From an uncultured Clostridia bacterium (GTDB lineage Bacteria > Bacillota > Clostridia > Oscillospirales > Acutalibacteraceae): a stretch of DNA of 64,000 nt. Below are positions 2,462-34,905 of this stretch, piece by piece. The notes beneath the pieces are model-generated. The model was not told the DNA's origin. It searched no databases and worked only from the letters and a program-made list of their open reading frames with translations. The DNA lies in assembly GCA_947166625.1 (NCBI GenBank), contig CAMVEX010000001.1, forward strand, positions 124,001-188,000, written 5' to 3'. Each line of letters starts with the position of its first letter. Position 1 is the first letter of the stretch. The position numbers were made by a program, and so were the translations under genes.

Positions 2462-3919
2462 ATGAGCGACAATCTCATGCGCGATCTGCCTGAAGAATCG
2501 GCAGGCAAAAAATATGTAAAGACCGGCAATCTCCTCGCTTACGCGGTCGGGCTTGCCGGGCAGAATATCTCATACGGATATATCTCAAGCTGGCTGTTTT
2601 ATTACCTTGAATATGTAAGAGGTATTTCCCCGAAGCTCTCGGGAATCATTACCGGCGTTTCGAGGATATGGGATTCGATAAACGACCCCATTGTCGGAGC
2701 GATGGTGGATAAACATAAATTCAGAAGCGGCGAAAAATTAAGGCCTCTGCTTCTCATCACTCCGCCGATCATCGGCCTGCTCTCTGTCGCGATGTTTATG
2801 CCCTATAAAATCGGCAACGCGGGATTCATAACGATAGTTTGCGCGGCATACCTGCTCTGGGACCTCTTTTATTCATTCCAGGATGTTGCCCTCTGGGGCA
2901 TGGTTGCGGTATCTTCTCCCCATTCGGAAGAAAGAAGCAGGGTGTCTCAATGGGTATCTATCGGCGCGGGCGCCGGCTCGACGATAGCAGGGCTTTTCCC
3001 GACATTCAGGAGCATGATCGAAAACATCGGCATATCCACCATTCATGTATTCGCTCTGTTTGCCGTGATATTCGCATTCGGCGGCGAGATCATCTCAATG
3101 CTCGCTCACAGGATGAAAGAGACTGTCGAAACGGAGCAGAGCAAAGAAAGCCTGCTGGAAGCGATATTTGTCTTGAGGCATAACAAGACCTTGCTGCTCA
3201 TATCAATAGCGAGATATTTCAAAGATGTGGCAAACACGATACTCCCCTGGGTTTATTTCTTTGAGAGCCGCGAATTTTATGATTTCGGCTTCGCAAAGGT
3301 CGGCTACGGCAATATGCAGGTATTTTACGGATTCTTTACGGGAGCCGTCGGCGCAGTCGCCATGCTCTTTGCCACAAGGATAGCGAAAAAACTCGGAGGA
3401 ATGAAGAAACTGCTGATAATAGCTCAGATAAGCAACATTATTTGCAGAGTATCGGCATTCTTTATCGGATTCGGCACTCCCGGACAGATGATAGCCTCAA
3501 TGGCGCTCATGGGAGTGGCAAACATCCCGATAAATTCAATGGATATTGCTCACCGCTCGCTTACCGCGGATTCGATAGACTATGTGGAATACAAGACCGG
3601 AAAGCGCACGGAAGGAATTTCATTCTCGATGCAGAATTTTATCTCAAAGATCTCTTCGGCGACCGTTCAGATAATAAACGGCTGGGTGCTTTCATTCCTC
3701 GGTCACGATTCCGGGCGCAAAAATTTCGATCAGAACCCGACTTATATGAAATGGCAGTGGCCGATATTTATGCTCGGCCCCGTTACGGGCGCGATCCTTT
3801 ATTCGATAGTGATTTCCTTTGTAAAAGACGACAAGGAGGAAAGGCAGAAGATCGAAGCGATCCTGCTCGAAAGGCACAGGCTCGAGGATGAAAAGCAGGA
3901 AGCGATCAATGCCGAATAA
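2462..3919 (+). CDS. GPH-family MFS sugar:cation symporter, second copy
   Basis: A 485-residue polytopic membrane protein with the same signature as its neighbour: SRIWDSINDPIVG, then GEKLRPLLL. The two are distant paralogues, with clearly different sequences outside the motif. The ATG at 2462 is preferred over an in-frame TTG just before it because GGTGAT gives the better spacing. Two unlike GPH transporters in tandem may be specific for two substrates or may work as a heteromer; the latter is speculation. The C-terminus is charged and cytoplasmic. Confidence 0.9.
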   Translation: MSDNLMRDLPEESAGKKYVKTGNLLAYAVGLAGQNISYGYISSWLFYYLEYVRGISPKLSGIITGVSRIWDSINDPIVGAMVDKHKFRSGEKLRPLLLITPPIIGLLSVAMFMPYKIGNAGFITIVCAAYLLWDLFYSFQDVALWGMVAVSSPHSEERSRVSQWVSIGAGAGSTIAGLFPTFRSMIENIGISTIHVFALFAVIFAFGGEIISMLAHRMKETVETEQSKESLLEAIFVLRHNKTLLLISIARYFKDVANTILPWVYFFESREFYDFGFAKVGYGNMQVFYGFFTGAVGAVAMLFATRIAKKLGGMKKLLIIAQISNIICRVSAFFIGFGTPGQMIASMALMGVANIPINSMDIAHRSLTADSIDYVEYKTGKRTEGISFSMQNFISKISSATVQIINGWVLSFLGHDSGRKNFDQNPTYMKWQWPIFMLGPVTGAILYSIVISFVKDDKEERQKIEAILLERHRLEDEKQEAINAE

Positions 3920-3927
3920 ACGATATA

Positions 3928-4593
3928 ATGCTTGAAACCAAAACTTTACTTGATCTGAGCCACACCGCTGCCGCGGAATATCTTGAGAAATTCACCCATC
4001 CGTGGGAGGCTCTCGCGGGAATTAAAGATGAAATTCTCAGACTCGGCGCATCGCTCGATAAAAACGAATACACCGAGATCTCCGAAAACGTATGGGTGCA
4101 TAACACCGCGAAGGTTGCCCCGACGGCATTTATAGGGGCGCCCTGCATAATCGGCAAAGACACCGAAATACGCCACTGCGCATTCATCAGAGGCAGCGCT
4201 CTCATAGGCGAAGGATGCGTTATAGGAAACAGCGTTGAAATCAAAAACGCGATCATATTTGACTCGGCTCAGGTGCCGCATTTCAACTATGTGGGCGACA
4301 GCATTCTCGGATATAAAGCGCACATGGGAGCAGGCTCGGTCACCTCAAATGTGAAGCAGGATAAATCCCCCGTAAGCGTAAGGACGGAAATAATGAAGAT
4401 CGAAACGGGCCTCAAGAAATTCGGCGCGATCATAGGCGACAACGCCGAGATCGGCTGCAACAGCGTTTTGAACCCCGGATCGGTGATCGGAAGAGGCGCG
4501 AGGATATATCCCCTCTCATCCGTAAGAGGCTTTGTACACGAAAGCATCATTTATAAAGGAAACGGAAAGGTAGCCAAAATCCAGGCAAGGTGA
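3928..4593 (+). CDS. Hexapeptide-repeat protein, GlmU C-terminal-like
   Basis: A 221-residue protein made largely of left-handed beta-helix repeats (PTAFIGAPCIIGKDTEIRH, then IGEGCVIGNSVEIKNA). VPHFNYVGDSILG and AHMGAGSVTSN resemble the acetyltransferase half of GlmU. The N-terminal pyrophosphorylase domain is absent; about 65 unrelated residues stand in its place. Such proteins are often annotated as UDP-N-acetylglucosamine pyrophosphorylase, which is misleading here. It starts 9 bp after the symporter with a poor ribosome site, so translation may be coupled. It ends 4 bp before glmM, which supports a role in amino-sugar or UDP-GlcNAc metabolism. Confidence 0.8.
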   Translation: MLETKTLLDLSHTAAAEYLEKFTHPWEALAGIKDEILRLGASLDKNEYTEISENVWVHNTAKVAPTAFIGAPCIIGKDTEIRHCAFIRGSALIGEGCVIGNSVEIKNAIIFDSAQVPHFNYVGDSILGYKAHMGAGSVTSNVKQDKSPVSVRTEIMKIETGLKKFGAIIGDNAEIGCNSVLNPGSVIGRGARIYPLSSVRGFVHESIIYKGNGKVAKIQAR

Positions 4594-4597
4594 CATC

Positions 4598-5980
4598 ATG
4601 GGTAAATATTTCGGAACAGACGGTTTCAGAGGCGAGGCAAATATAGTCCTCACCGCTGACCACGCATATAAAACCGGGCGGTTCCTCGGCTGGTATTACA
4701 CCGAATTAAACAGGCGCAGAGGTATCGACGAGCCCGGCAGGATCGTGATTGGCAAGGACACAAGGCGTTCAAGCTATATGTTTGAATACTCTCTGATAGC
4801 GGGTCTGACCGCCTCGGGAGCGGACGCTTATATGCTCCACGTTACGACAACGCCGTCTGTTGCATACGTTACAAAAACCGACGAATTTGACTGCGGGATA
4901 ATGATTTCCGCAAGCCACAATCCTTATTATGACAACGGAATAAAGCTCATCAACCGCGAAGGTATCAAAATGAATGATGAGACGATAAGTCTCATTGAGG
5001 CGTATCTTGACGGCGAGCTGACGGTATTCGGCGAAAAATATGATACTCTCCCCTTTGCCACGCGCGAGCATATAGGCAAGACCGTGGACTATGTTTCGGG
5101 CAGGAACAGATATATCGGCTATCTTATATCTCTCGGAATGTATTCATTCAGAGGCAAGAAGGTAGGTCTTGATTGCGCGAACGGCGCGACCTGGAATGTG
5201 GCAAAATCGGTATTTGAGGCTCTCGGGGCTACAACATACGTAATAAATGCCGAGCCGGACGGCTTTAATATCAACGAAAACGCGGGCTCAACTCACATAG
5301 AGGGGCTGCAAAAATTCGTGGTAGAAAACGGCCTGGATGTCGGCTTCGCTTATGACGGCGACGCGGACAGATGCCTTTGCGTTGACGAAAAAGGCAATAT
5401 CCTCACGGGCGATCATATCCTCTATATCTACGGAAGATATATGAAGGAGCGCGGAAAGCTCATCAATAACACGGTCGTAACAACGGTAATGTCCAATTTC
5501 GGGCTTTACAAGGCATTTGACGAAATCGGCATAGATTATGCAAAGACCGCCGTGGGCGACAAATATGTGTATGAATATATGGCGGAGCATAAAAACTTCC
5601 TCGGCGGAGAGCAGAGCGGCCATATCATATTCTCAAAATACGCCACAACGGGCGACGGAATACTGACCTCGCTTAAAATGATGCAGGTGATGATGTCTAA
5701 GAAAACGACAATGAGCGAGCTTGCAAAGCCGCTCAGGATATATCCGCAGATACTCGAGAATATCAAGGTAGCCGACAAGCCCGCCGCAGTAAACGACAGC
5801 GAAGTTTTACAGGCGGTAAAAGCCGCTGAAGAAGAGCTGGGCGACACCGGCAGGATACTGCTCAGAGAATCCGGAACGGAGCCCGTTGTCAGGGTAATGG
5901 TCGAAGCGGACACAGAAGAAAAATGCCGCAGATATGTTGACCTTGTAGGCGGGATAATAAAAAGAAAATACGCAGTATAA
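4598..5980 (+). CDS. glmM: Phosphoglucosamine mutase GlmM
   Basis: Interconverts glucosamine-6-phosphate and glucosamine-1-phosphate on the path to UDP-GlcNAc and peptidoglycan. It starts MGKYFGTDGFRGEAN, as in this family. The phosphoserine loop is ISASHNP (Ser106), the metal loop DGDADR begins at residue 253, and the phosphate-binding loop RESGTEPVVRVMVE sits near the C-terminus. At 460 residues it is of normal length. It follows a GlmU-like protein by 4 bp and is closed by a strong terminator, so it is the last gene of this operon. Confidence 0.96.
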   Translation: MGKYFGTDGFRGEANIVLTADHAYKTGRFLGWYYTELNRRRGIDEPGRIVIGKDTRRSSYMFEYSLIAGLTASGADAYMLHVTTTPSVAYVTKTDEFDCGIMISASHNPYYDNGIKLINREGIKMNDETISLIEAYLDGELTVFGEKYDTLPFATREHIGKTVDYVSGRNRYIGYLISLGMYSFRGKKVGLDCANGATWNVAKSVFEALGATTYVINAEPDGFNINENAGSTHIEGLQKFVVENGLDVGFAYDGDADRCLCVDEKGNILTGDHILYIYGRYMKERGKLINNTVVTTVMSNFGLYKAFDEIGIDYAKTAVGDKYVYEYMAEHKNFLGGEQSGHIIFSKYATTGDGILTSLKMMQVMMSKKTTMSELAKPLRIYPQILENIKVADKPAAVNDSEVLQAVKAAEEELGDTGRILLRESGTEPVVRVMVEADTEEKCRRYVDLVGGIIKRKYAV

Positions 5981-6005
5981 CTGCGAATATCCGATATAAA
6001 ATTTT

Positions 6006-12996: not shown

Positions 12997-13230
12997 AATA
13001 AAATCCCCCATTGCCGAAGCAATGAGGGACGAATATTCATTCCGCGGTACCACCCTGCGTTCCCGCCCGTAAGCGGACTCTCGAGGCGATAACGGAGCCA
13101 CCGTCTGCGACTACTCAGTTTCACCGCAGACGCTCGCGGGCGAACTTCGATAAGGCACGGATGACCCGCTCACAGCATACGCGGGCCTCTCTGAAATCCG
13201 GACTTTTACCTACTCTCCCGGTCAAAGCGT
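12997..13230 (-). promoter_or_regulatory. T-box riboswitch (tRNA-Phe) of pheST
   Basis: The T-box core AGGGTGGTACCGCG lies at 13056-13043. A terminator follows at 13030-12997 (CCTCATTGC, loop TTCG, GCAATGGGG, then ATTTTATTAT). Upstream, the stem I elements GGGAGAGTAG and CAGAGAGG...GTATGCTGTGAGC are visible. The specifier is probably TTC (13144-13142) in the context GAAGTTCG, matching phenylalanine. Uncharged tRNA-Phe would stabilise the antiterminator and allow pheST expression. Confidence 0.93.
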
Positions 13231-13302
13231 ATAATTTATTTACGGGCAGATCTATCTGCGCCGAAAGCTGAAAATCCCGGCACATCACCCGTTTATTCAA
13301 TA

Positions 13303-31053: not shown

Positions 31054-32256
31054 TTATTTTGTGTCATTTTTGAATTTATACCAAGAGTTTACAAGGCTTC
31101 TGAAGCCGAGTTCTTTAAGAGTTTCATACCGCACGGAATAATTTGATTTGGTCTGCCTGCCGGTATAAACATACCTCGCCCATTGGGCAACATAAGAATC
31201 GATCTCTCTGAGAGATCTGTCGGTATTTATGACCGGGAAATACCATCGGGTCCAGGTTAAATCGCTGCCGCCGGTCTTTGAATAGAATTTTTTATTGACG
31301 GCGCGCAGGAATGCCCTGACCGTCTGCTCGGAGGTCGCGCCCTTCCTCGCCTGCCAGCGCTTCAAGGCACGGGCGCGGCGACGGATCTTTGCCTTTAATT
31401 TTTTCATCGCGGACGCCGAAACATCGATCTCGCCCGATAAATATGAAAAACCGAGGAATTCCCATTTTTCGCCGGGTGAGGTCTCCGATTCTTTGGAGGG
31501 GTTTATCTCAAGCCCTTTTTGGGCTATAAATGATACGATAACGGAGCGGGCGCGATCCCTCTCATCCGACGAGGGGGCAAAGACGATGATATCATCGGAA
31601 TATCTTGCATAAAGGATATTTTCGCTTTTCATCCTGTAATCAAGATCTTTCAGATATAGATTTGCGAGAAAGACGGAGAACGGAACGCCCGCCATCACTC
31701 CCTTTTTTACCTGCCTTATCTCGGAATCGACCGAGGCACGTTCATCACACAGAAGCCCTTCAAACAGGCGGTATATCTCATCCTCACCTTTGAGAAGCTC
31801 TTTGAGATCCGGCAAGAGAAGAGATATATCTATGCTGTTGAAATAATCCGAAATATCGGTTTTATATGAATACATCTCTCCGATATCACGCCTGAGCAAA
31901 ATATCACCGACAGCCTTGTTGACCCCGCTGCGCACCCTGAAGGAGTAGAGATTATCGCAAAAACGCCCGTCATAACGCCGCATAAGGATAAAGGTGAGCA
32001 GTTTGAAAATATAATTTATCTCGCGTTCATAGATAAATACCCGGCGCTTTTCGCGCGAGCCGGATTTGCCGATAGACTTCATTTCGGGCAGAGGTATCTC
32101 TCCGCGAAACAATCTCCCGGCGGCTTCAATATATTCACGGTTTTCAATATATTGACGAAGGTCTGTTTCTTCGCTTTTTGTGAGATTGCCGGAGCCGGTT
32201 TTATATTCCAGATATGTTTCCCACTCGGCGGGGTCGGTAAGCCGCTCTTTAATCAA
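31054..32256 (-). CDS. Stand-alone reverse transcriptase of uncertain class
   Basis: About 400 residues with the ordered RT motifs: LYSFRVRSGVNKAVGDIL (motif 2 region), YKTDISDYFNSID (A), GVMAGVPFSVFLANLYL (B), YARYSDDIIVFAP (C, with Ser in the usual YADD), LEINPSKE (D) and EFLGFSYL (E). A thumb-like C-terminus ends SVRYETLKELGFRSLVN. No HNH, protease, nitrilase or toxin domain is fused. The NAxxH and VTG motifs of canonical retron RTs are not seen, and no group II intron RNA was recognised. The TTG at 32256 sits 8 nt after GGAG and is preferred over a GTG at 32265 that overlaps the ribosome site. A candidate structured RNA lies directly upstream. Likely kin are the 'unknown group' or defence-associated RTs. 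Confidence 0.85.
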   Translation of the reverse strand: MIKERLTDPAEWETYLEYKTGSGNLTKSEETDLRQYIENREYIEAAGRLFRGEIPLPEMKSIGKSGSREKRRVFIYEREINYIFKLLTFILMRRYDGRFCDNLYSFRVRSGVNKAVGDILLRRDIGEMYSYKTDISDYFNSIDISLLLPDLKELLKGEDEIYRLFEGLLCDERASVDSEIRQVKKGVMAGVPFSVFLANLYLKDLDYRMKSENILYARYSDDIIVFAPSSDERDRARSVIVSFIAQKGLEINPSKESETSPGEKWEFLGFSYLSGEIDVSASAMKKLKAKIRRRARALKRWQARKGATSEQTVRAFLRAVNKKFYSKTGGSDLTWTRWYFPVINTDRSLREIDSYVAQWARYVYTGRQTKSNYSVRYETLKELGFRSLVNSWYKFKNDTK

Positions 32257-32274
32257 GACGATCACTCCGAAAAT

Positions 32275-32413
32275 AAAAAAGCAGAGGGAAATGGCTTTGA
32301 AAGCCGGTATCCGGCTTTACGGAACCGTACACGGACACGCTCCTGCAAAGCGGTCAAAAAGTCCGCGCTGTGTTCTCCGCAGGGCATATTAAATGCATTC
32401 CCTCTGCTCTTTT
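32275..32413 (-). ncRNA. Candidate structured RNA upstream of the reverse transcriptase
   Basis: About 139 nt bounded by inverted repeats. The 5' arm AAAAGAGCAGAGGGAA (32413-32398) pairs with TTCCCTCTGCTTTTTT (32290-32275), including one G-U pair. TG/CA pairs extend it past a bulge. Inside are a perfect 8-bp hairpin AAAGCCGG-ATA-CCGGCTTT (32318-32300), CCTGC/GCAGG enclosing GCGG/CCGC (32384-32343), and a small CCGT/ACGG hairpin. The 3' arm runs into six U, 18 nt before the RT start codon. The layout resembles retron msr-msd (a1/a2 repeats) or template RNAs of defence RTs. It could also be an attenuator or a small inverted-repeat element. Confidence 0.5.
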
Positions 32414-32439: not shown

Positions 32440-33048
32440 TCAGATACGCGCAACTGTTTTGATCCTGCCGATCACATACGAAGGTTTATTTTCAAATTCT
32501 TTGAAGAATCTGATCGCCGGAAGCCCTTTTTCTTCGCAGGCGTTCATGGTGTTGATAACTCCGTAGAGCCTGTATTGATTCTTATTGCAGACTATTACGG
32601 CGAGCACCGGCTTTGAATCCTTCATCAGCACAAGATCGACGGGGACAAACTTCTTGCCCGGATATTTATCGGAAGAAATATTTGCTCCCCTTTTAACGGT
32701 AACTCCCGGAAGATTGAGCGAGATGAGATCCTCAATATATTCGCAGGTTTTCTTTCGTGAAACGGAGCTTTTTACCGCGCCCTCAAAAGGGATGATCGGC
32801 TCGCAGTGTTTTTTGATCAGGCGGGGAGCCGAATCGGGCGACACGGTGTAGGTTTCGCCGTTGTCTTTTGCCACCTGAGACGGGGAATAAGCTGATTGGG
32901 ATTGATCGCTGCGCATGGAAGACTGCTTATCCTGCAAGGTTTCTGCGGTTTCTTTGAGCTTTTCCTCCGCAAGCTGAGCCGCGGATTTGACAGTGGATCT
33001 GATTTTGTCCTGAGCCTCTTTGCTTAAAAGCTTGTCAAATAATCCCAT
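32440..33048 (-). CDS. Hypothetical protein, 202 residues
   Basis: The N-terminus MGLFDKLLSKEAQDKIRSTV leads into a charged helical, probably coiled-coil stretch to about residue 45, then a low-complexity Ser/Gln linker. The C-terminal ~120 residues look like an alpha/beta domain (KFVPVDLVLMKDSKPVLAV, GLPAIRFFKEF). The order Asp-beta-beta-Lys recalls a degenerate restriction-endonuclease-like fold, but the Glu of E-x-K is missing. No signal peptide. It lies 33 bp after secreted hydrolase 3 and 26 bp before the candidate RNA, so it is the last gene of the large operon. Function unknown. Confidence 0.7.
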   Translation of the reverse strand: MGLFDKLLSKEAQDKIRSTVKSAAQLAEEKLKETAETLQDKQSSMRSDQSQSAYSPSQVAKDNGETYTVSPDSAPRLIKKHCEPIIPFEGAVKSSVSRKKTCEYIEDLISLNLPGVTVKRGANISSDKYPGKKFVPVDLVLMKDSKPVLAVIVCNKNQYRLYGVINTMNACEEKGLPAIRFFKEFENKPSYVIGRIKTVARI

Positions 33049-33081: not shown

Positions 33082-34905
33082 TTACTTAAAAAGGTTTCTG
33101 ATTTTTTCAAAGAGAAGCTTCACGGTAAGTCCCGGAATTTCGGAATACCCGTCGGTGCCGAAATTATCAAAGAGGAAATTGCTGATTTTGCGTAAAAATG
33201 CCGGATTTTTTTCTTTCTCTGCCTTGAAGGCGCCCGCCTTCACAAGGCAGTCCGTCAGCTTTTTCTCGCACCTTGCGAAATCATCCGAGGTGGTGAGATT
33301 ATCCGCCATAACTCTCTCGGTTTCCGCGAGAGCGGCTTCAAGCTCGGCCTTGTCGGAAGAATTCAGCTTTGATGTATCGAGAGCCTTCGCGGTTTTAATA
33401 AGCTCATTGAGCTTTCTCACATCTCTGCCCGATATAAACTGCGGAAATTCAGGAGAGGAATATACATCCTTTATCTCATCATCGGCTATCAGACGCATCG
33501 CAAGGCGGAGAATGACATCGTTATGAGCGGTGAGATCATGCCTCTGACCGTCAAAATAAAACGTCGTATCGGGAAGAAGGCCCGCGGATGCGTCGATCAC
33601 TTTATCGGGCGAAATATGATTATGAGAGGGATCGGAGCAGTGGGTATTCTTTTGAGCGTAGCCGTCGGGCAGGGTCTCGCCGCAATTTGCAGAATAAGCG
33701 CCGAGCGAGGTGGAGCTGACATGGATGATAAAATCGCCGTTCATCTTATTCCAGTTTTCACCCACGTTTATCACGGGATAATCGTATTCGACAACATCGA
33801 ATACCTGCACTCCCTTATCGACCAGCTTCTGAATATTATCGTGAGCGTGAAGCTGAGCCTGATAATATTTATCGGTCTGCTCTTTTATAGCCGCCATTTC
33901 GGGCGAGGAGAGATATTTTTTTGCGGCTGAGGGATAATCCTCGGGCGGGCAGAGAGCCCACATACTTGTGCTCTTGATCATTATATTCTCAACAAGATGC
34001 TTGACGCCCTTTTCGAGGGTCGCCATGACTATCTCATCGGGAAGGATCCTCACGAGGACTTCAATGAGCCTTGCGGTATATTCATCAAGCAGGCGTATCT
34101 CTTCGAGAAATCCGTTATAGAGATAATCTTTATCGAGGAAATTTATCCTGCCGTTGAACACATCGCCGATAATGATGGAGCCGCCGATGGCGGGCACAAC
34201 GAACATAACCTTATGGAGCTGATCCATCACTTCGGGTCTGTATTCGAGCATGGCGCTCACAACAGAAGCGCCCTGGCTGAGAGGGACAAGATTCACTTTA
34301 TCGTGACCCGTCTGCTCTTTGACCATCTGAATATAATCATAAAGCTCATTTGCAAGACCGATATGATTATCAAATGAATCATAGGAAAAATAATAGATAT
34401 GATCCTTGGGCAGAGCGGTGGGATACATTTCAAAAGGAACATGAGTATTTATGACGCCTATTTCATAATCGCTGCACTCGGCATAGGAATGAGGGAATTT
34501 TTCGGTAACTTTATTCGTTACGATTTTTCCGTTATTGTCACAGGCGTTGATGCCGAAAAGAGTATCTATAACATCCGCAAAAGCATCCGACATCCCCAGA
34601 TCTCTCTGGGTAGCGAGCGAGCCGAGGACGGGAAGAAGCATTTTTGAAATGATCTTGTTTATCTGAATGTAAGCCGGGAAAGCGGATATTTTTTTGCCGT
34701 CTTTATCCAGAACGAAATTCCCGTTGCCGTCAGTAACGCAGACACTGGACTGCCCGAGACCCGGAACGATTACCGTGGGATAAAATTCGCAGTTTTCACC
34801 GCAGGAGCTGACCTTGGCATCTGCGGCAAAGCCGGTAAGCGCAACGGACATTATCATTATCGCGCTTAAAATGAGGCATATAATTGATTTAACGGTTTTT
34901 TTCAT
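33082..34905 (-). CDS. Secreted alpha/beta hydrolase (lipase/LCAT-like), paralogue 3
   Basis: 607 residues with a signal peptide (residues 1-28). The oxyanion-like segment is FYPTVIVPGLGQSSV and the elbow is P-L-S-Q-G with Ser210. The region SPDKVIDASAGLLPDTTF followed by GQRHD matches paralogues 1 and 2 and may hold the catalytic His. Towards the C-terminus a helical stretch with many Glu/Ala leads into the tail KLLFEKIRNLFK. The ribosome site AAGGAGGAAATC is strong. It is in an operon with PAP2 (11 bp upstream) and several phosphoesterases, which supports a lipid or phospholipid substrate. Confidence 0.78.
   Translation of the reverse strand: MKKTVKSIICLILSAIMIMSVALTGFAADAKVSSCGENCEFYPTVIVPGLGQSSVCVTDGNGNFVLDKDGKKISAFPAYIQINKIISKMLLPVLGSLATQRDLGMSDAFADVIDTLFGINACDNNGKIVTNKVTEKFPHSYAECSDYEIGVINTHVPFEMYPTALPKDHIYYFSYDSFDNHIGLANELYDYIQMVKEQTGHDKVNLVPLSQGASVVSAMLEYRPEVMDQLHKVMFVVPAIGGSIIIGDVFNGRINFLDKDYLYNGFLEEIRLLDEYTARLIEVLVRILPDEIVMATLEKGVKHLVENIMIKSTSMWALCPPEDYPSAAKKYLSSPEMAAIKEQTDKYYQAQLHAHDNIQKLVDKGVQVFDVVEYDYPVINVGENWNKMNGDFIIHVSSTSLGAYSANCGETLPDGYAQKNTHCSDPSHNHISPDKVIDASAGLLPDTTFYFDGQRHDLTAHNDVILRLAMRLIADDEIKDVYSSPEFPQFISGRDVRKLNELIKTAKALDTSKLNSSDKAELEAALAETERVMADNLTTSDDFARCEKKLTDCLVKAGAFKAEKEKNPAFLRKISNFLFDNFGTDGYSEIPGLTVKLLFEKIRNLFK

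Follow-up and report, generated by a model that had tools for sequence, protein, structure and literature searches.

A UG26 reverse transcriptase and its RT-5 RNA: a near-strictly linked partner and probable template

The Class 2 unknown-group (UG) reverse transcriptases (RTs) studied so far use cis-encoded noncoding RNAs (ncRNAs) as templates (PMC13174585, PMC12632851). DRT3a copies such a cis-encoded ncRNA (PMC13174585); DRT2 (UG2) features a pseudoknotted ncRNA and concatemeric complementary DNA (cDNA) (PMC12039810); DRT9 (UG28), composed of an ncRNA and an RT, makes Tyr-primed poly-dA (PMC12489045, PMC12483538); and DRT10 (UG17), composed of an ncRNA, SLATT, and an RT, makes tandem-repeat cDNA from a template loop that follows the last stable stem-loop, at about nucleotides (nt) 107 to 119 of its 137-nt ncRNA (PMC12632851). 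Priming on a C-terminal Tyr or Ser is described for DRT10 (PMC12632851) and DRT9 (PMC12489045, PMC12483538). Among the UG RTs that use ncRNA templates are proven phage defenses, and a link between these RTs and telomerase origins has been drawn (PMC12632851); UG26 has been reported in cold-seep viruses (PMC10504277). Here, we analyze a UG26 RT gene and the structured RNA of the RT-5 family upstream of it, both located in a 64,000-nt stretch of DNA from an uncultured Clostridia bacterium (contig CAMVEX010000001.1, positions 124,001 to 188,000; "the window" in the following). We find that RNA and RT are linked across genomes in a near-strict, one-to-one fashion, and we propose that the RNA is probably the private template of the RT and possibly part of an antivirus system.

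The window RT is a member of PADLOC group RT_UG26 (PDLC03764). This group was the best match in a PADLOC search (502.6 bits, E = 1.6e-151, residues 7 to 400 aligned to positions 5 to 397 of the 398-position model), followed by UG27 (111.8 bits) and UG17 (108.3 bits); the characterized groups next in score include UG17 (DRT10), Drt9, and Drt3a. This places an RT whose class had been left unassigned by the original prediction, which was made from the sequence alone and described a protein of ~400 residues with a YSDD motif, starting 18 nt after an upstream segment with pairing ends. That description holds: the open reading frame at 31054 to 32265 is intact, and a TTG at 32256, with GGAG ahead of it and 18 nt past the RNA segment, opens a 400-residue RT. 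This TTG fits better as the start than the GTG at 32265, which is possible and would yield 403 residues, with the YSDD active site at residue 222 of this longer form. The NCBIfam models for group II, Drt3a, Drt2, and retron RTs all gave scores far under their cut-offs. An assignment to group II intron RTs, which the original prediction had named as an outcome that would speak against it, was rejected, with 93.9 bits on the maturase model (cut-off, 300) and no group II intron RNA reaching its cut-off anywhere in the window.

A phylogeny, also suggested at that time, gave a compatible picture. In a tree of 43 RTs, the window RT and the UG26 proteins (25 rows) fall on one side of a branch whose support of 88/74 counts as open by the standard of the tree program, with long branches limiting the deeper order; three viral relatives adjoin the UG26 set, and 15 other RTs stand apart (support, 100/99). 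Bacillota, Bacteroidota, and Actinomycetota titles are interleaved across the rows of this tree; they derive from metagenome-assembled genomes and may be wrong. Viral relatives were also found in IMG/VR, where UG26-like RTs occur at 29 to 34% identity and four score 256 to 304 bits on the UG26 model.

The segment upstream of the RT gene, from 32275 to 32413, is a genuine structured RNA of the Rfam family RF03026 (RT-5 RNA). When the full window was compared with Rfam 15, only a T-box leader and RT-5 (E = 4e-11 for the window as a whole) reached their cut-offs, and the RNA matched no Rfam family besides RT-5 at E values up to 1. Each of 20 other loci submitted to Rfam also carries RF03026 above its cut-off; these loci were already known to match R1, an RNA model that we built from 46 sequences and that includes the window RNA as one of its seeds. 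Since the RF03026 match spans only positions 32288 to 32387, ending within the outer stem, most of that stem lies outside it; the structure line of the family has no pseudoknot. None of 200 shuffled versions was as stable as the window segment (z-score in Table 1). The minimum-energy fold of the segment departs from the consensus, since the folding program forms no pseudoknots.

Table 1. Features of the UG26 locus, in window coordinates
Feature	Positions	Strand	Basis
Structured noncoding RNA, full extent (139 nt)	32275-32413	-	Model R1, 99.4 bits; fold z-score -6.17
RF03026 (RT-5 RNA) portion	32288-32387	-	67.9 bits; gathering cut-off, 45.7
P1 outer stem, 5' arm	32398-32413	-	16 bp with 32275-32290, one G-U
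P1 outer stem, 3' arm, U tract at end	32275-32290	-	Pairing and covariation
P2 small hairpin	32384-32396	-	Covariation in A3 and A6
Pseudoknot 5' arm (CCUGCG)	32378-32383	-	7-column helix with P5 loop
Pseudoknot 3' arm, within P5 loop	32342-32347	-	Covariation in A3 and A6
P3, 5' arm	32372-32375	-	Covariation in A3 and A6
P3, 3' arm	32322-32325	-	Covariation in A3 and A6
P4, 5' arm	32360-32368	-	Covariation in A3 and A6
P4, 3' arm	32329-32337	-	Covariation in A3 and A6
P5 hairpin bearing pseudoknot 3' arm	32339-32351	-	Covariation in A3 and A6
P6 hairpin (AAAGCCGG-AUA-CCGGCUUU)	32300-32318	-	Covariation in A3 and A6
Template candidate 1, junction from P6 to P1 (UUUCAAAGCCAUUUC)	32288-32302	-	Placed like the DRT10 template loop
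Template candidate 2, GUA-N7-GUA	32318-32330	-	Both GU near invariant, 10 nt apart
Template candidate 3, variable P4/P5 loop	32352-32359	-	Low information per position
UG26 reverse transcriptase	31054-32256	-	400 residues from TTG; PADLOC RT_UG26, Pfam RVT_1, open reading frame
Companion gene, 202 residues, RTasCOG2852 family	32440-33048	-	Just upstream; family match via aligned members

The fold was assessed in two alignments. Alignment A3 holds 46 of 91 aligned upstream sequences (25 were left out for length, 1 for Ns, 14 as odd or near copies, and 5 by hand), and alignment A6 holds 41 left-out or short-listed RNAs outside model R1, which were aligned to R1, so that the A6 counts lean toward the nested helices. 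Covariation supports the outer stem, five further helices, and a 7-bp pseudoknot. Across the seven helices in A3, 92.0% of 1770 cells are paired and 29 of 39 pairs have changed on both sides (257 such cells); none of 500 shuffles reached any of five measures, versions slid out of register paired at 36 to 49%, and RNAalifold, run unaided on the alignment, returned 27 pairs, 20 of them with a change on both sides. For the six nested helices in A6, 94.7% of 1309 cells are paired and 28 of 33 pairs have changed on both sides, a count reached by 2 of 500 shuffles (none reached the other four measures), with slid versions at 38 to 47%. The stems proposed from the single sequence do covary, and the 16-bp pairing of the segment ends (32413-32398 with 32290-32275) was recovered with one G-U pair: P1 shows changes on both sides in 7 of 9 counted pairs in A3 and in all 9 in A6. 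The inner helices behave similarly, with 95.7% of cells paired and both-sides changes in 3 of 4 pairs for P3 (A6: 97.5%, 3 of 4), 94.7% and 7 of 9 for P4 (95.5%, 7 of 9), 97.8% and 3 of 3 for P5 (99.2%, 3 of 3), and, for the small P2, 100% in 2 counted pairs with one both-sides change (94.2% in 3 pairs). The 8-bp AAAGCCGG-ATA-CCGGCTTT hairpin of the original prediction is present in the window as P6, for which 5 pairs were counted; 66.5% of its cells are paired in A3, a low value due to register shifts there, and 86.5% in A6, with both-sides changes in all 5 pairs in both sets.

The pseudoknot connects the strand after P2 with the loop of P5. In A3, its 7 pairs have 99.1% of cells paired and 3 pairs with both-sides changes, including G-C to A-U and C-G to U-A in seven sequences each. 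In A6, whose aligning model does not contain the pseudoknot, 98.2% of 271 cells are paired (slid versions, 27 to 45%) and 4 of 7 pairs have changed on both sides (as many in 4 of 500 shuffles), with 21 such cells (0 of 500). Further pair types were no more numerous than in shuffles (384 of 500). This helix accounts for the CCTGC/GCAGG match in the window, which had been read as a stem: its pairing stands, and its nesting does not. A separate observation concerns the foot of P4, where a G-U wobble (32368/32329, RNA positions 46 and 85) is invariant in 46 of 46 sequences in A3 and in the 40 of 40 others with letters at these positions, which is unusual given that the rest of P4 covaries freely.

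Two sources supplied the orthologues: 198 related genomes, and 80 named loci that were the 80 best of 569 confirmed matches in GTDB species genomes. This sampling favors orthologues resembling the window and includes some near copies (for example, L037, L039, and L040). Run on 96 loci, model R1 found the RNA in 87; the loci without it are four with less than 115 nt upstream (L060, L073, L079, and L110), the viral L113 to L116, and L057. Of the 88 cellular UG26 loci whose upstream sequence reaches 240 nt or more, 87 thus carry the RNA, and orthologous RT genes keep the segment in which the original prediction had placed its RNA; 46 of these 87 are seeds of the model, and with seeds excluded the count is 41 of 42. 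Among the 198 related genomes, the RNA was found in 18 (19 hits) and a UG26 RT (E < 1e-140) in the same 18 (19 hits), each RNA adjoining its RT when compared by eye and one genome holding two copies of each. A further RNA search in 398 genomes of the phylum, which like all our many-genome RNA searches used strict filters that may miss weak RNAs, found it in two, the window's own genome and one (G418) in which a 41% identical UG26 RT lies beside it. In most loci, the RNA ends within ~60 nt of the RT start, and in a few it lies farther away, at 617 to 631 nt (L055, L061, and L064) or 2877 nt (L089). Taken together, this near-strict linkage makes the RNA almost certainly the partner of the RT. 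Two loci show unusual arrangements: in L089, 2.9 kb and several opposite-strand genes separate the RT-5-type RNA (positions 2982 to 3123, 116 bits) from the RT downstream of it, and in L077 (positions 3448 to 5123 and upstream) the unit of companion gene and RNA is doubled before a single RT, with companion matches at E = 6e-40 and 5.8e-21 and two RNAs.

Because a cis ncRNA serves as template in the Class 2 UG systems published so far, we infer the same role here: the RNA is probably the template of its RT, which makes a template-RNA system, one of the two options originally proposed, the best reading. By the same analogy, it is likely that the UG26 system consists of an RT with its own RT-5 RNA as both template and scaffold, often behind a small companion gene. 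The RT would bind the RNA via its folded scaffold and would copy a short segment into cDNA in the manner of DRT9 and DRT10, most likely from the junction between P6 and P1. The cDNA, with or without the companion, would then act in the cell, most likely in phage defense, a role that we regard as slightly favored. Provided that the RNA is a template, the junction after P6 has somewhat less than an even chance of being the copied segment. It spans nt 112 to 126 of 139 and can be read in the window as UUUC-AAAGCCA-UUUC. A repeat scan against shuffles, covering three candidate regions in 87 rows each, gave for the junction a 3-nt repeat in 70 rows (shuffled, 67.4) and a 4-nt repeat in 31 (20.9; standard deviation [SD], 3.9). 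The P4/P5 loop gave 34 (35.4) and 8 (7.6), and the GU..GU stretch gave 82 (51.1) and 46 (11.3), an excess that reflects conservation rather than covariation because these columns are near invariant. The middle of GUA-N7-GUA is itself the 3' strand of the covarying P3.

The junction holds a second kind of repeat. Its bases after a conserved YAA repeat the 5' arm of P6, with a longest shared word of 3.59 nt versus 3.02 (SD, 0.08) in permutations that ignore the relatedness of the sequences, none of 2000 being as high (81 rows). When the rows were split post hoc, 56 gave 3.89 versus 3.13 (0 of 2000) and the other 25 gave 2.92 versus 2.72 (3.85% as high). The words differ by sequence: the window has AAAGCC twice, and others have AGCAATA, AGCAU, AACCG, AACCU, AUCC, AUCG, or AUUG. 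Either this repeat forms an alternative hairpin competing with P6 or the nascent cDNA can pair with the P6 5' arm. As for the latter, cDNA made from a junction that repeats the P6 5' arm would match the P6 3' arm in sequence and be able to base-pair with the 5' arm, and this pairing might free the template for a new round. It is tempting to speculate that UG26 makes short tandem-repeat cDNA through such hairpin-switch resetting of the template, an idea that we consider distinctly unlikely as it stands; the repeat could instead form a hairpin that excludes P6. If true, the hairpin switch would represent a second, hairpin-based answer to the problem that DRT10 and telomerase solve by an A-B-A' arrangement. 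The models make distinct predictions for the window: copying of the junction would yield TGGCTTTGAAA repeats (11 nt), copying of the GUA stretch would yield GGAACCGTAC (10 nt), and the hairpin switch predicts cDNA in which junction sequence runs on into P6.

Several observations weigh against a template-RNA defense system of this kind. Read as A-B-A', the junction after P6 shows an A-to-A' match of 3.08 nt, versus 2.99 with the 3' parts swapped, which is not beyond chance, the value being reached by 7.25% of 2000 permutations that likewise ignore relatedness (71 rows). One cellular locus with long upstream sequence (L057, around position 6000) gave neither RNA nor companion, and R1 matched nothing upstream of the viral UG26-like RTs L113, L114, and L115 (about 300 bits), each with at least 236 nt upstream; these viral loci may have a diverged RNA or none. 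With filters off, R1 found nothing up to E = 5 in one UG17 locus, so that homology to the DRT10 RNA was not detected there. UG26 RTs keep a C-terminal aromatic pair that includes one Tyr or more in 89 of 96 distinct RTs (the count covers the aromatic pair; L095, one of the 89, does not fit the pattern used and was counted from its sequence tail). The remaining 7 of 96 lack Tyr at both positions, so that the pair is no more than suggestive of protein priming by Tyr. Finally, few defense-family matches occur among neighbor proteins, in the families listed.

The first of these points would suit an RNA that serves as a scaffold or regulator only, binding the RT and activating or repressing it, or controlling the RT mRNA via the outer stem and U tract, with DNA synthesis that is untemplated or templated elsewhere. 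The template stretches considered here fail the repeat tests or pass them weakly, and the RNA ends in P1 and a U tract in a leader-like place, mostly within ~60 nt of the RT start. A simple leader is nevertheless disfavored by the loci in which the RNA lies 617 to 631 nt (three loci) or 2877 nt (one) from the RT with genes in between, and the studied Class 2 relatives use their ncRNAs as templates; on balance, we consider a scaffold- or regulator-only RNA unlikely. A retron or retron-like element, in which a1/a2 repeats bound an msr-msd region, was the other option of the original prediction, and an inverted repeat does bound the RNA directly upstream of a stand-alone RT. That option did not survive the assignment to UG26 (502.6 bits, compared with 58.3 on the St85 model, cut-off 235), and a retron RT was rejected: the RNA matches RT-5 alone, and the NAxxH and VTG motifs, already noted as missing, are indeed absent from the window RT. 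This absence is not universal, since NA..H strings occur in 2 and VTG strings in 7 of 94 distinct RTs examined. We consider a retron highly improbable. A diversity-generating retroelement is likewise disfavored by the assignment to UG26, although no search aimed at pairs of template and variable repeats was made.

More serious, if still doubtful, is the possibility of a host-adapted RT that keeps its template RNA and performs a nondefense job. The cassette is chromosomal, lying among metabolic and phosphoesterase genes; the window locus has phosphoesterase, PAP2, and lipase-like genes as neighbors, and two congeners also have RT and companion next to these genes, the upstream flank being visible on one contig and the downstream flank on the other. 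Searches of 72,556 plasmid and 50,697 phage records recovered no relative at E = 1e-20. Among the proteins neighboring UG26 loci (120 scanned of 206 listed; PADLOC threshold, 1e-10), defense families were few in the 25 of 49 PADLOC families listed, with mad2 and mad3 in three proteins each, AriA in two, and restriction-modification, PtuA, RTasDUF1848, and others in one each; the Pfam families (25 of 122 listed) are chiefly ordinary enzymes and transporters. On the other hand, some neighbors do match restriction, PtuA, and AriA families, the relatives of the group are phage defenses, and the distribution is patchy (18 of 198 relatives), with phyla that interleave in the tree as far as titles from metagenome-assembled genomes can be trusted. 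A clean empty site was not found: the PAP2-lipase genes are retained in three congeners that have no strong UG26 RT, and the genes on the other side of the window cassette are missing there.

The original prediction was correct that the RT has no fused effector, and it did not mention the separate, often conserved gene upstream of the RNA. Among 89 loci with 700 nt or more of upstream sequence, the companion profile, made from 48 members, matched in 61, all of them cellular (61 of 87, against 0 of 2 viral loci); this is a count and not a test because the profile was built from such loci. Of the aligned members, 46 of 48 matched the PADLOC family RTasCOG2852 (PDLC03793; best E, 3.9e-73), the window companion alone doing so weakly (20.5 bits, E = 1.2e-4, residues 1 to 57 only). 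The family name suggests a Vsr-like nuclease, and the acidic and lysine residues expected of one appear unconserved in the alignment by eye. Most companions open with MGLF/MGLL-type helices, and a few have a zinc-ribbon-like or membrane segment, again by eye. No Pfam family matched more than one of the 48 companions, and a sequence search of solved structures gave no credible relative (best E, 0.12, an unrelated nanobody). With low confidence, these sequence features might point to a binding domain that does not cut. Scanned alongside the RT, four neighbors gave no SLATT match in Pfam. As L055, L061, and L064 indicate, RNA and RT form the core and the companion varies.

In these three loci, a gene lies between RNA and RT (L055, 5390 to 5995; L061, 5287 to 5967; and L064); the L055 gene is SAP-DUF6434 on scan and the L061 copy looks alike, an apparent alternative companion. 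Elsewhere in the window, the T-box leader lies at 13022 to 13234 on the reverse strand (125.3 bits in the Rfam search), and positions 33082 to 34905 encode a protein that is lipase-like by eye and has no Pfam match, with 17 matches in its own genome and many in congeners.

The UG26 RT group, the companion family, and the RNA family have each been catalogued previously. RT-5 RNA was reportedly named in a 2017 paper, presumably for its place near RT genes, and we take the general association of this RNA with RTs to be old. Nothing on RT-5 RNA with a reverse transcriptase, on RF03026, on RTasCOG2852, or on DRT11 to DRT13/UG27 was found in the literature that we searched, nor was the link between UG26 and RT-5, which may stand in the 2017 RT-5 paper or in a 2022 UG/Abi survey. 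What is added here is the union of RT and RNA with its near-strict linkage, the full extent of the RNA, a pseudoknotted fold supported by covariation, and testable predictions for the cDNA. No function is stated for the RNA in the RF03026 entry, and the PADLOC models include no RNA for the RT group. Bringing the two together provides an uncharacterized RT group with a defined partner, its likely ends, its pseudoknotted fold, and a few candidate template segments, which allows a direct search for the cDNA.

How the locus relates to the described systems can be summarized as follows. DRT10 shows several likenesses: its RNA measures 137 nt and that of the window 139 nt, both have a closing stem with hairpins within and a loop after the last hairpin, the candidate junction follows P6 just as the DRT10 template loop sits right past a stable stem-loop, and the RTs are related by profile (108.3 bits for the window RT on UG17). 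Membership in DRT10 was nevertheless rejected, since both the RT group and the companion differ: a UG17 protein scores 521.1 bits on the same model, and RTasCOG2852 takes the place of SLATT, with an RNA that usually lies beside the RT rather than ahead of the companion. DRT9 shares a cis ncRNA with several stem-loops and conserved C-terminal Tyr residues, but its ncRNA is 188 nt long with a conserved U-rich template, whereas the junction here is partly U-rich (UUUAA...UUU) and the Tyr is not universal. DRT2 likewise combines a pseudoknotted ncRNA with a stand-alone RT, and the conserved ACA trinucleotides that flank its template recall the conserved GUA...GUA; its RNA of 280 nt with a 120-nt template contrasts with the 139 nt found here. 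With respect to the catalogued families, the proteins are those of PADLOC RT_UG26 and RTasCOG2852, whose models are protein-only and have no RNA part, and the RNA is that of Rfam RF03026, to which the full outer stem and the pseudoknot supported here add beyond the entry.

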